The notes beneath the pieces are model-generated. The model saw only the letters and a list, made by a program, of their open reading frames with translations, made no database searches and was not told where the DNA came from. This document shows, piece after piece, positions 940 through 62,644 of a stretch of DNA of 64,000 nt. Source of the stretch: Bacteroidota bacterium (GTDB lineage Bacteria > Bacteroidota > Bacteroidia > B-17B0 > Aurantibacillaceae); assembly GCA_030681615.1 (NCBI GenBank), contig JAUXSA010000056.1, forward strand, positions 1-64,000, given 5' to 3'. Within the stretch, counting starts at the first letter, position 1. Every line of letters begins with the position of its first letter. A program made the translations under genes and the position numbers.

Positions 940-1446
940 TTATAAAGGTAAAAGTCCTTTGTTTAGGTAAGGTTTTAACTCATGGTTTAAACGCTTAATA
1001 GCAATTCCCATTTGATTTTCAACGGTTTTTAATGAAATAGACAGGTGCTGTGCAATTTCTTTATGTTTCATGTTTTCAAATCTGCATAGAACAAAAATTA
1101 CTTTGCATTTTGGAGGAAGATTATCTATGGCTGCCTGTATTTTAATTTCGAGTTCTTTTAATAATATATTTTCGTCAGTGTTATCAATTGACGCTATTTT
1201 TATATCGGATAAGTACACGCGTTTTTTATTGTTTTCGAGATAAGTAAGCGAGGCATTAATAACGGACCTGAATAAGTAGGCTTTTGGATCAAGGATACGA
1301 TCCATCTCATCTTTTTTATTCCACAACTTTAAAAAAACTTCCTGCACAACATCATGAGAAGCATCTTTATCATTAATAATGTTTTCAACCGTATTTCTGA
1401 GATTATTATAATGCGCTTTATATATTATTTCAAATTGGTCTGGCAA
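940..1446 (-). CDS. ECF RNA polymerase sigma factor (FecI/RpoE-like, sigma-70 family)
   Basis: 168 residues, a normal length for an ECF sigma factor. Region 2 is at about residues 5-75 (FEIIYKAHYNNLRN, then VVQEVFLKLWNKKDEM and KAYLFRSVINAS). Region 4 with its helix-turn-helix is at about 105-160 (LPPKCKVIFVLCRFENMKHK, then IAQHLSISLKTVENQM). The start is TTG at 1444-1446: an in-frame TAG lies directly upstream and the next ATG would remove region 2. The FecR gene follows on the same strand, so this is a sigma/anti-sigma pair. In Bacteroidota such pairs usually control outer-membrane uptake genes, but the target is not visible here. Confidence 0.93.
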   Translation of the reverse strand: MPDQFEIIYKAHYNNLRNTVENIINDKDASHDVVQEVFLKLWNKKDEMDRILDPKAYLFRSVINASLTYLENNKKRVYLSDIKIASIDNTDENILLKELEIKIQAAIDNLPPKCKVIFVLCRFENMKHKEIAQHLSISLKTVENQMGIAIKRLNHELKPYLNKGLLPL

Positions 1447-3285: not shown

Positions 3286-4710
3286 CTAGTTAAAAAACAG
3301 TGCATTAAAGTTGAGTAAATATACTTTTTCGGTTGCTCTGGTAATAGCAGTATATAACCAGCGCACAAAATTCTCATCAATGTTCTCTTCTTTTAAAAAG
3401 CCCTGATCGATGAAAACTACTGGCCACTGGCCACCCTGGGACTTGTGGCAGGTTATAGCGTAACTGAATTTTACCTGTAATGCATTATAATATGGACTGC
3501 TTTTTAAATACGCCATGCGTATGCCCTTTGCCGGTTCATGACTCACATCGGCCATTACAGCCTGAAATAAGTGTTTTTGCTCTTCCTGACTTAATGCGGG
3601 ATTATCCGTAAAAAGTGAATCAGTAATTATTTTCACTTGTTGTTCCGGTAAATTAGGATAATCAATAAAACGTACCTGGCACTCACAAAAATTTAATCCG
3701 TATAAACTTTCACGGTTAACCATACGTGTTATTTCAGCCATATCACCATTTGCAATAAAGCCAGCCTCGCCATTATTTTCGGGTAACCAAAAATAATTAT
3801 TTTTTACAACCATTATTTTATCGCCGGTGCAAAGATCTTCTTCATAAAGTTTAATCCTGTTGCGAAAACTTTGGTTGAAGAGGTTGGCTCTTTTATTGCT
3901 GCGTGTAATGATCACCACGTTTTCTTCGCCGTACTTGGAAATGGCACTGTTTATGCAGTCTTCCAACTCATCACCCGGCAAATTAATAAAGTCTTTTCCG
4001 CAGATCAATTTTGGAAATTCAAAAACTTCCTGTCCAATACTATTACGAATATTTGTAGCATTCAATAAAATACCGCTCTCTAAACGTTGCCGGGCAACTT
4101 CCTTTAGTTCAAAAAAATTAATATTCAAATGAAAAGCCGTGCGTAAATAATTTTCATTCAATGCCGGACTTTCGTTACTACCCACGGGAGGAAGTTGCGC
4201 TGTATCACCTATAAGAATGAGTTTACAATTATCGCCACTGTAAACATATTCAAATAAATTTTCCAACAAACTGTTCATTAAACTTTCCCCACCCGAATCG
4301 GCACTAATCATCGAAGCTTCATCAACAATAAATAAAGTGTTCTTATGTAAATTCTCTGAAAGAGAAAAATAAAAAGCGCCATCTGCTCCAATTTGTTTTC
4401 TGAATATTTTTTTATGAATGGTTTGTGCTGCTTTTTGTGAATACATGCCCAACACTTTAGCTGCACGGCCTGTAGGAGCTAATAACACGCTACGCCATTT
4501 TATTATAGGCAATGCTTTTGTAAATGCAGAGATAAGATTTGTCTTACCGGTACCTGCATAACCTCTTAAAATAAAAACAGAACGCTCATCGGTATTTAAA
4601 ATAAAATCTGAAATTTTCTCTATAGCTGTTTTTTGATCTTCGTTGGCTATAAATGGTAAATATCCTGAAACTATTTTTCCGAGATCGTAGGGGGAATTTA
4701 TTTTTGACAT
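3286..4710 (-). CDS. RecD-like / Pif1-type superfamily 1 DNA helicase
   Basis: 474 residues. Walker A is GYAGTGKTN at 50-58, Walker B with the SF1 signature is VDEASM at 129-134, and motif III is IGDTAQLPPVGS near 172-183. The C-terminal UvrD_C_2-type motifs are YAITCHKSQGGQWPVVFID from 417 and WLYTAITRA at 451-459. The protein is therefore an ATP-driven 5'-3' translocase of the RecD/Dda/Pif1 group, acting on DNA ends or single-strand gaps. It is shorter than RecD2 and has no N-terminal HhH or OB part. No recB or recC lies nearby, so a free-standing role in repair is more likely than membership of a RecBCD complex. Confidence 0.88.
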   Translation of the reverse strand: MSKINSPYDLGKIVSGYLPFIANEDQKTAIEKISDFILNTDERSVFILRGYAGTGKTNLISAFTKALPIIKWRSVLLAPTGRAAKVLGMYSQKAAQTIHKKIFRKQIGADGAFYFSLSENLHKNTLFIVDEASMISADSGGESLMNSLLENLFEYVYSGDNCKLILIGDTAQLPPVGSNESPALNENYLRTAFHLNINFFELKEVARQRLESGILLNATNIRNSIGQEVFEFPKLICGKDFINLPGDELEDCINSAISKYGEENVVIITRSNKRANLFNQSFRNRIKLYEEDLCTGDKIMVVKNNYFWLPENNGEAGFIANGDMAEITRMVNRESLYGLNFCECQVRFIDYPNLPEQQVKIITDSLFTDNPALSQEEQKHLFQAVMADVSHEPAKGIRMAYLKSSPYYNALQVKFSYAITCHKSQGGQWPVVFIDQGFLKEENIDENFVRWLYTAITRATEKVYLLNFNALFFN

Positions 4711-4740
4711 TATTTAGAGCTTGGTTAAAAGTAAATAAAA

Positions 4741-4766
4741 AAGCCACCCTTATAGAGGATGGCTTT
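4741..4766 (-). terminator. Rho-independent terminator after first duplicated lipoprotein gene
   Basis: A 10-bp stem (AAGCCAYCCT with its complement) closes a 5-nt loop. On the minus strand it is fully paired with one G-U wobble, and the adjoining plus-strand A-run gives a U-tract in the minus transcript. The plus-strand transcript would carry a C-A mismatch, so the minus orientation is favoured. It lies 22 bp beyond the stop of the gene at 4789-5688 and is nearly identical to the terminator at 5841-5865. Confidence 0.8.
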
Positions 4767-6927: not shown

Positions 6928-7785
6928 ATGCTGGGTGAAAATTATAAAGAAAGACTGATCTTAAAAGATAAAGCCAAAGAAAATGAGGCAGGGTCTTTAT
7001 CGCTTTTTATAAGCCATCATTCATTAATTTATTCTGTTTCCGACAAAAACTTTAAAAATATCTCCCAATTAGGACACGCAGAGATCTTAAATTCTACCGG
7101 TGTGGGCCAAAGTTTTACTGAAAGGATCACTTTTTTGTTAAATAACTACCAGTTGCTTCAAAAAAAATTCGAAAAGGTTACCATCTCTATTTTAAGTAAA
7201 GATTTTACAATTGTACCTGAGGCTTTTTCAAGTCCGGGACATGTTAAGGAGTTTCTTTCTTTTTCATCTGGCCTTACTGAAATTAAAAATCCTCATATAC
7301 ATACTATAAAGAATGTAAAATTCTGTTATGTCTTTGAACAGGAACTTATCCAATATATAGAAAGAACATTTACGCAGGCAATTATAAAACATGCAGGTGC
7401 AATAAACACAGACCTCTTTTTTAGCAACCACTCTTTAATGAACTGTAATTTATTTTTAACAATTAATGATGGTTTAATTGAAATAGCTGCCAAAGAAAAG
7501 AACGACCTTTTATTTTATAATGTGTTTAATTATGAGAATAACGAAGATATATTATATTACCTTCTTTTTATGATGGAGCAATTCAACTTAAATCCATTAC
7601 AGATAAAATTAGTAATTAGCGGGCAGGTTCAAACAACAGATCCTTTAATATTGAGTATAAAAAAATACATTAAGCAGGTAAATTTTGTAGTGCATAATTC
7701 TGAAATAAAATTAGAAGGCGAATTATCTAAATTACCGCAACATCATTATTTTACTTTATTAAACCAACACCTGTGCGTATCATAA
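6928..7785 (+). CDS. DUF3822 family protein
   Basis: 285 residues, soluble, with no signal peptide. Two similar halves can be discerned: SLSLFISHHSLIYSVSDKN near the start and TDLFFSNHSLMNCNLFLTIN in the second half, both with an S-L-I/M pattern, and both followed by alpha/beta segments. This architecture and the position directly upstream of rsmD fit DUF3822, a Bacteroidota family of unknown function that has a two-domain actin/ASKHA-like appearance; the fold is from memory. The stop overlaps the GTG of rsmD by 13 bp, so translation is probably coupled. The link to 16S rRNA modification is inferred only from position. Confidence 0.8.
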   Translation: MLGENYKERLILKDKAKENEAGSLSLFISHHSLIYSVSDKNFKNISQLGHAEILNSTGVGQSFTERITFLLNNYQLLQKKFEKVTISILSKDFTIVPEAFSSPGHVKEFLSFSSGLTEIKNPHIHTIKNVKFCYVFEQELIQYIERTFTQAIIKHAGAINTDLFFSNHSLMNCNLFLTINDGLIEIAAKEKNDLLFYNVFNYENNEDILYYLLFMMEQFNLNPLQIKLVISGQVQTTDPLILSIKKYIKQVNFVVHNSEIKLEGELSKLPQHHYFTLLNQHLCVS

Positions 7786-58840: not shown

Positions 58841-59500
58841 TTAGTTAATGGTAGTTATTTCGGCATCGCCCCAAAGTCCTTCAATATTGTAAAATTCGCG
58901 GGTTTCGCGTAAAAACACATGCACCACAATGTTTATGTAATCAATTAAGATCCATTCGCTGTTCTGGTGTCCTTCGGAGTGGTATGCTTTTTCGTTGGTC
59001 AATTTTATAACCATGTCTTCTACGCTATCGGCAATAGAGTTAACATGGGTCTTGCTATCAGCATCGCAAATAACAAAATAATCCGTAACACGGTTATCTA
59101 ATTTGCTGATGTTTAAAATAGTAATATTTTTTGCCTTGCGGTCTTCCATACCCTCAACAATAGCGTCTAAAAGGCTGGTTGTTTCTTTTGGTGTAGAAGA
59201 TTTTTTAGGACGTTTTGTGCTGCTGCCTGTTTTCTTTTTATTTTCTGAATTGGCTATAAGATTGGCCTCACGAAATTCTCTTTCCTCGGGCGTTACAACC
59301 TTTTTCTTAATTATTTTCTTTGCCGGAGCTTTGGCTTTTGGGCTTTTTTTCTTGCCTGCGGCGGCAAAACCAAGTTTGGCCTTCACAGTTTTTTTAGCAG
59401 CAGCCTTTTTAGCGGGAGCAGCTTTTGTACTTTCTTTCTTTTTAACGGCAGATTTTATTGTTTTTTTAGCTGCTGCTTTTTTAACCGGAATTTTGGCCAT
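58841..59500 (-). CDS. rsfS: Ribosome silencing factor RsfS with a basic N-terminal extension
   Basis: 219 residues. The RsfS domain is at about 108-219: LLDAIVEGMEDRKAKNITIL, NRVTDYFVICDADSKTHVNS, and WILIDYINIVVHVFLRETRE. RsfS binds uL14 and stops 30S and 50S from joining when nutrients are low. Normal RsfS is about 115-125 residues. Residues 1-70 here are a Lys/Ala-rich tail of the histone H1 kind (KKAAAKKTIKSAVKKK, KKAAAKKTVKAK), and 70-107 a charged, Ser/Thr-rich linker. The extension keeps the frame and contains no stop, so it is part of the gene. It heads the rsfS-ftsH transcript. Confidence 0.94.
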   Translation of the reverse strand: MAKIPVKKAAAKKTIKSAVKKKESTKAAPAKKAAAKKTVKAKLGFAAAGKKKSPKAKAPAKKIIKKKVVTPEEREFREANLIANSENKKKTGSSTKRPKKSSTPKETTSLLDAIVEGMEDRKAKNITILNISKLDNRVTDYFVICDADSKTHVNSIADSVEDMVIKLTNEKAYHSEGHQNSEWILIDYINIVVHVFLRETREFYNIEGLWGDAEITTIN

Positions 59501-61320: not shown

Positions 61321-61818
61321 GTCACTTTTTGCTTGATCAAAAAGTAACCAAAAAATCAAGGCTCACAAAGAAATTCTTTGATTTGTAGTTTTAAATTTTT
61401 TTGTGTCGCCCGCAAACTCGCCCCGTCAAGCAATTCATTTGCTAGGGGCTCAAACAGCGCGGGCTCGAATAATTTTAATTGCAGCTAACCGCTTAAATGT
61501 TTTGATTGAACTATGCATTTAAAATTTGTCAGGATAAAAAATTAAAACTCAAATCGTACGGAATTTCTTTGAGGCCACCTCTGTGCGTGCTTATACGCAT
61601 GGATTTACGGCTGTAGCTTGGCAGTTAGATGTTTGAGTTTTCGATCTTGATCTTTTGCAGAGATAGATGCGAGCTAAGCTAGGCGATTAGTTGATTAGGC
61701 ACACAGAAAAGTGCTTAGCGAGGCAGCGATTTTTCTTTCGCTGCTCTACCTCGCGAAAGAAAAAATCTCCTTCAAAAGATCAAATGCGTTTTGGTTACTT
61801 TTGCGCGCCAAAAGTGAC
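61321..61818. repeat. About 0.5-kb intergenic element bounded by self-complementary inverted arms
   Basis: The left arm (61321-61354) is GTCACTTTTTGC-TTGATCAAAAAGTAACC-AAAA. The right arm (61789-61818) read on the minus strand is GTCACTTTTGGCGCGCAAAA-GTAACC-AAAA. Each arm is itself a hairpin, and the outer bases pair with each other. Between them are a GC-richer segment and a hairpin at about 61731-61768 (GATTTTTCTTTCGC / GCGAAAGAAAAAATC). No gene-like frame fits. Similar long elements occur many times in some Bacteroidota as I recall, but no transposase is seen here. Confidence 0.65.
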
Positions 61819-62299: not shown

Positions 62300-62644
62300 A
62301 TGGAAGAATTAGAAGTGAACAATTTCCTGGTGCAGCAAAATTTATTCGACCTGTTTAAACGCCAGTTAAAAAAGGATTTTAGCAGTTGTAGTTTGGATAC
62401 AGAGTTTGTGGAGGAATTACCAATAGATATGGAACCGTTAAAAGCCTCTATACGCTTGCAGTTAAAACCATTATTAAATAATTCGCAATTATCGGCTTTA
62501 TTATATCGCATAGATATTAGCGAATTGCAAATAAAAAATTACGAAGCAAAAAATAAAAACCTTTCTTTTGAAGACATCTTAGCTGAATTAATTATTAAAC
62601 GCATCCTTCAAAAAGTGATCTTAAAGAAAAAATTCTCGCAATAA
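62300..62644 (+). CDS. Hypothetical protein in [2Fe-2S]/GNAT operon
   Basis: 114 residues, mainly helical, without signal peptide. It begins EELEVNNFLVQQNLFDLFKR and ends in a basic helix (IIKRILQKVILKKKFSQ). The middle SIRLQLKPLLNNSQLSALLY looks like an amphipathic helix. The gene starts 3 bp after the ferredoxin gene and ends 1 bp before the GNAT gene. No family is recognised; the size and place suggest a small adaptor or regulatory subunit. Confidence 0.78.
   Translation: MEELEVNNFLVQQNLFDLFKRQLKKDFSSCSLDTEFVEELPIDMEPLKASIRLQLKPLLNNSQLSALLYRIDISELQIKNYEAKNKNLSFEDILAELIIKRILQKVILKKKFSQ

Follow-up and report, generated by a model that had tools for sequence, protein, structure and literature searches.

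The window, by which we mean the whole analysed stretch of 64,000 nucleotides, contains a repeated, foldable and non-coding element located between two divergent genes, which encode an epimerase and a ferredoxin-like protein. The initial annotation, made from the sequence alone, described this element as bounded by arms that are hairpins themselves, with no gene and a different base composition inside. The absence of a gene was borne out, as the only open reading frame of more than 65 amino acids inside the element comes from the neighbouring epimerase frame, of which it is a TTG-started extension reaching the left arm, and the longest frame tied to the element, of 65 amino acids, has no Pfam match. 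With regard to base composition, the GC content inside is indeed raised, at 39.8% compared with a window mean of 35.1%, but the difference is modest and corresponds to approximately the 89th percentile among 432-bp windows; the flanks of the element have a GC content of 28–29%. On the 3' side of the ferredoxin-like gene, the plus-strand frame at 62300–62641 encodes 114 amino acids without a Pfam match, and a similar frame is also present 3' of the ferredoxin gene in relatives. Elsewhere in the window, the minus-strand gene at 58844–59500 encodes an RsfS-family protein of 219 amino acids, with a Pfam domain limited to residues 113–210 and an N-terminal half that consists of a Lys/Ala-rich extension.

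Inverted hairpin arms with the common pattern GTCACTTTT...AAAAGTAACCAAAA are present at both ends of the element, and each of them folds on itself, in agreement with the initial description. The left arm (61321–61353) reads GTCACTTTTTGCTTGATCAAAAAGTAACCAAAA and the right arm (61789–61818), on the minus strand, reads GTCACTTTTGGCGCGCAAAAGTAACCAAAA. Within both self-complementary arms there is one conserved C.A mismatch (GTCAC/GTAAC); as it concerns only one position, it cannot settle the question of DNA or RNA. The 14-mer AAAAGTAACCAAAA has two exact occurrences in the 64 kb, both of them in these arms. An arm covariance model, which was built from an alignment that takes in the left arm of the window copy, gives 71.8 bits (E 6e-14) for this left arm and 23.8 bits (E 0.0024) for the right one. 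Furthermore, the folding of the whole element exceeds that of dinucleotide shuffles, with z = -5.4 and -5.2 on the two strands and none of the 100 shuffles equalling it. A weak match to the arm model at 4697–4751 (+) of the window, with 17.1 bits and E 0.076, is possibly due to chance.

The arms do bound the stretch, as had been claimed, but they belong to two polar units in head-to-head arrangement and not to one element (Table 1). Judging from sequence comparison, the unit consists of an arm, whose loop is predicted to pair with the DNA just inside, and then a closed domain built of stems. A closing stem of at least 8 bp was found directly inside the arm in 57 of 129 arms, the corresponding counts being 12 for the outer side of the arm and 8 for shuffled sequences, and since the closing stem starts on the inner side of the arm, the arm and the closed domain that follows it make up a polar unit. 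The palindrome that had been pointed out near 61731–61768 is real (61730–61741 / 61753–61764) and covaries among copies. Elsewhere, the unit is found singly (G494), in direct tandem (Pedobacter, Rhodonellum and G033) and as head-to-head pairs (G417). No convincing genes were present between the hairpins of the direct tandem arrays inspected, and the idea that these arrays could be integron cassettes was rejected for this reason.

Table 1. Features of the element, in positions of the window.
Feature	Position	Strand	Remarks
Whole element, two units inverted head to head	61321–61818	.	Sequence, fold and copy comparison
Left hairpin arm, stem 1 GTCACTTTTTG / CAAAAAGTAAC	61321–61348	+	One C.A mismatch
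Left-arm loop CTTGAT, 5' strand of stem 2	61332–61337	+	Pairs with 61355–61360; compensated variants elsewhere
ATCAAG, complement of left-arm loop, 3' strand of stem 2	61355–61360	+	Pseudoknot-like
Unit 1 domain (module A), closing stems GGCTCACAAAG.. / ..CTTTGAGGCC	61360–61576	+	Around two hairpins
Hairpin with conserved internal loop AAACTCG / CTCAAACAG	61408–61464	+	
Linker between unit 1 and unit 2	61577–61645	.	Flanked by the closing stems of units 1 and 2
Unit 2 domain (module R)	61646–61785	-	Around two hairpins
Unit 2 closing stem TTGATCTTTTG / CAAAAGATCAA	61647–61657 / 61773–61783		
Covarying hairpin of unit 2	61726–61767	.	Palindrome of the initial annotation
Right hairpin arm (61794–61818) with GCG/CGC loop complement (61786–61788)	61786–61818	-	

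Structural covariation, one of the checks suggested at the outset, is strong in the arm stems, in the loop:downstream pairing and in the body stems. In the outer arm stem, 175 of 208 pairs are Watson-Crick in 52 non-redundant arms (shuffled mean 107.5, maximum 126), a count that is overstated because these arms were found with patterns requiring most of the outer-stem pairing. The loop matches the downstream segment over 6 bp or more in 28 of the 52 arms (shuffled mean 13.1, maximum 21); this match was no requirement of the patterns, though the arms were hand-picked by loop class. The variants of this pairing are compensated, as seen in CTTGAA/TTCAAG, CTTGAC/GTCAAG and GGGC/GCCC, and a second type of arm has short GCG/CGC or GCC/GGC loop:downstream pairs. 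The gapless alignment of the arms, from which the pair counts were taken, agrees with these results (covariation of 0.192 vs 0.071, 0 of 500 shuffles); a MAFFT alignment put the stems out of register. Additionally, the closing pair N/N', which is free in the exact arm pattern, is complementary in nearly all the loci matched.

Long covarying stems are also found in both bodies, with a covariation score reached by none of 500 shuffles, a comparison that favours the body structures in that they were predicted from the same alignments used for scoring. In one hairpin, the internal loop AAACTYG/CTCARACAG is invariant, and the stems on either side of it differ when the genus of G000 is compared with loci in G494, G679, G627 and G417. 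The stems of this internal-loop hairpin have 33 cells changed on both sides, compared with 8.7 in shuffles.

These structural features bear on a different reading, according to which the unit would encode a structured non-coding RNA of some 150–250 nt, with a 5' pseudoknot and a junction domain holding the invariant internal loop, present in many dispersed copies and working as RNA, for example in an RNA-guided or ribozyme-like element. The constant polarity from arm to domain, the invariant loop between covarying stems and the loop:downstream covariation are consistent with such an RNA, and the combination of a pseudoknot-like arm with an invariant internal loop is often seen in structured RNAs. 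Stand-alone HEARO and omega-RNAs similarly have a large conserved fold and many dispersed copies without open reading frames. Unlike these RNAs, the elements described here have no recurring neighbour gene, no preference for G.U and no Rfam match, as the covariance models of Rfam 15 returned no family at gathering score. Their orientation with respect to genes is not fixed in the larger sets either. Two matches to Flavo-1 RNA lie below its gathering score of 42, namely 37.6 bits at 1066–1123 (+) of L293, close to a unit, and 28.4 bits at 7616–7707 (-) of L206.

The mismatches in the stems also bear on the nature of the folded molecule. Among about 1,400 cells, G.T was counted 10 times and A.C 11 times; the two mismatches are thus equally rare, though these counts are small. 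An RNA folded from one strand should tolerate G.U over A.C, and thus the equal counts favour pairing that may be kept at the DNA level, by folding of either strand or by correction between palindrome arms. This symmetry speaks mildly against the structured RNA, which we consider rather unlikely. A wobble asymmetry of the arms was rejected as proof of the strand, since a single conserved position accounts for most of it. On balance, a mobile DNA element appears better supported than an RNA gene.

The element is neither single-copy nor unconserved, with dispersed copies in its genome, in its genus and across the Bacteroidia. In its own genome, 29 matches at E <= 0.01 correspond to about 14–17 dispersed copies or fragments, several of which are halves or mosaics. 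Matches at E <= 0.001 were obtained in 34 of 60 genomes, its own included, mostly from the same genus. The exact arm pattern was found in records of Ilyomonas, Pedobacter, Mucilaginibacter, Rhodonellum, Mariniradius and one Saprospiraceae bacterium, and a strict search of the phylum matched 12 of 395 genomes, compared with 0 for the reversed control pattern. The arm covariance model at E <= 0.001, in a search whose E-values are rough, matched 132 of the 295 sampled Bacteroidia genomes (approximately 45%), in 82 of 155 genera. A repeated, structured, non-coding family of elements is well supported. One of the elements (L018, G000:C44) lies between a full nucleotide-sugar epimerase gene and its apparent truncated duplicate.

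With regard to the surrounding genes, a set of 50 phylum-wide loci contains 66 arms, none of which falls within an open reading frame of more than 120 amino acids, and a second count found 2 of 118 arms within a frame of at least 100 amino acids. The arms are found between convergent (35), tandem (43) and divergent (13) genes, a pattern that suits an insertion tolerated mainly downstream of genes. This mostly downstream location, together with the strong foldbacks, could also point to a role for the neighbouring genes, as a cis-acting transcription terminator or a structure in their 3' UTR. However, the units have no clear orientation bias with respect to the outer gene, with counts of 30/26 and 11/9 in the larger sets and 7/0 in the small G576 set, and the arm stems are A/T-rich and are not followed by a U tract on the outward-reading strand. 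Moreover, the window copy sits between divergent genes, and the relative G006 keeps both of these genes around an empty site, so that a terminator or 3' UTR function seems very unlikely. No recurring neighbour gene that would suggest an autonomous partner was found among the 50 loci.

The divergent pair of epimerase and ferredoxin genes is conserved in several relatives. The orthologous site of G006 has approximately 40 bp between the two genes and no element. Among the other relatives checked, only G019 matches the element at this site, and the neighbour or the gene order differs in several of them. In G019, the right part is 95% identical to that of the window copy, and the left half is occupied by another foldback module. 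In the C52 region, the element at one G006 site most resembles the element at another G000 site. A small gene located between two copies in the C131 region (L222 4345–4720) has an orientation in G000 opposite to that in G019 and G006, and at C183 a module that G019 possesses is missing. Shared sites thus have different content, and the route to it would be recombination, gene conversion or insertion.

In the distant genome G687, the arm is found within a repeat of approximately 350 bp with terminal inverted repeats (L267–L285), the ends of which are AATGYTTCTCCG...CGGAGAAACATT, the terminal repeat being also written AATGYTTCTCCG...TACACCAA. The flanking 8-mers agree at 7 or 8 positions in 9 of the 17 two-ended copies, compared with 12 of 266 mismatched pairings. 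These duplications are AT-rich and 8 bp long, with no such signal at lengths of 7 and 9, and constitute good evidence for transposition of the ~350-bp repeats of G687. Since the terminal repeats are located beyond the arm, the latter need not be the substrate of transposition in this genome and may be a passenger of the repeat. As for the window copy itself, we infer that it has moved; target duplications and exact ends were looked for at this copy and in its genus and none were found, the junctions being too diverged.

The elements are comparable to MITEs in being short, non-coding and repeated, and the G687 copies add terminal inverted repeats and 8-bp duplications to this likeness. Unlike MITEs, the window copy ends in hairpins and is not flanked by a detectable target duplication, and no parent IS was found, IS1595 being the sole family examined. 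This family was looked for in eight genomes and, having no match in G687, was rejected as the partner there. The initial proposal of a mobile unit or a structured RNA is partly supported, by the multiple copies, their covariation, the empty site, the swapped modules and the target duplications of one distant genome, with no target duplication found at the window copy.

A further candidate is a REP/BIME-type palindrome moved by a Y1 (RAYT) transposase. REP families are intergenic palindromes in head-to-head and tandem arrangement (PMC3733652), and Bacteroidetes subclass 2.6 TnpA genes have been reported with atypical flanking structures (PMC6006769). Similarly to REP, BIME and REPIN sequences with their TnpA_REP (RAYT), the elements are dispersed intergenic palindromes, single, head-to-head or clustered, and mosaic. 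In contrast to them, the units are about 150–250 bp long and have a multi-stem domain, and their arms and conserved flanks lack the GTAG/GGAG- or CGTC-type tag of the 20–40 bp REP hairpins. Nor was a linked Y1 gene found: the Y1 loci examined in the element's own genome and in 25 genome entries, several of which are the same genome twice, all lack the arm at their flanks, and G006 has elements but no match to Y1_Tnp. In the genomes tested, the REP/RAYT reading is largely refuted, and we regard it as the least probable of all. Two Y1_Tnp genes with subclass 1.2-like motifs (L060 and L061) have their own unrelated palindromes at their flanks (CCACGACCT... and GGTCGCTCC...).

The reading that we favour, with reasonable though not high confidence, is that of a non-autonomous, non-coding mosaic foldback DNA repeat of polar units, two of which lie head to head in the window. 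A putative trans-acting transposase or recombinase would act on the units and lead to their spread, the folding of the DNA would take part in the action of this enzyme, and the copies could later be reshuffled by recombination between common palindromes. Such an element would probably be selfish and tolerated mainly downstream of genes. More tentatively, the units might represent a Bacteroidota-wide structured class, with a pseudoknot-like arm and a junction domain with the AAACTYG/CTCARACAG loop, that is read as folded nucleic acid by some enzyme or acts as RNA, and which would then be a new class of mobile element or non-coding RNA and not a variant of REP or MITE.

In the open literature, the papers listed for the arm letters were unrelated and no paper on the internal loop or on a comparable repeat came up, and this foldable DNA repeat family is apparently undescribed as far as that literature goes. 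The sources searched contain no account of non-coding repeats of this complexity in Bacteroidota, yet the arm is present in almost half of the sampled Bacteroidia. If confirmed, the family would make up a widespread part of the intergenic DNA of a major phylum, and would mark sites of module exchange and of a change in the orientation of a small gene between relatives. For annotation, it would matter that such repeats can break assemblies and yield spurious small open reading frames. It would also direct attention to the enzyme for a hairpin arm of this kind, in which the loop is paired with DNA beyond the arm.
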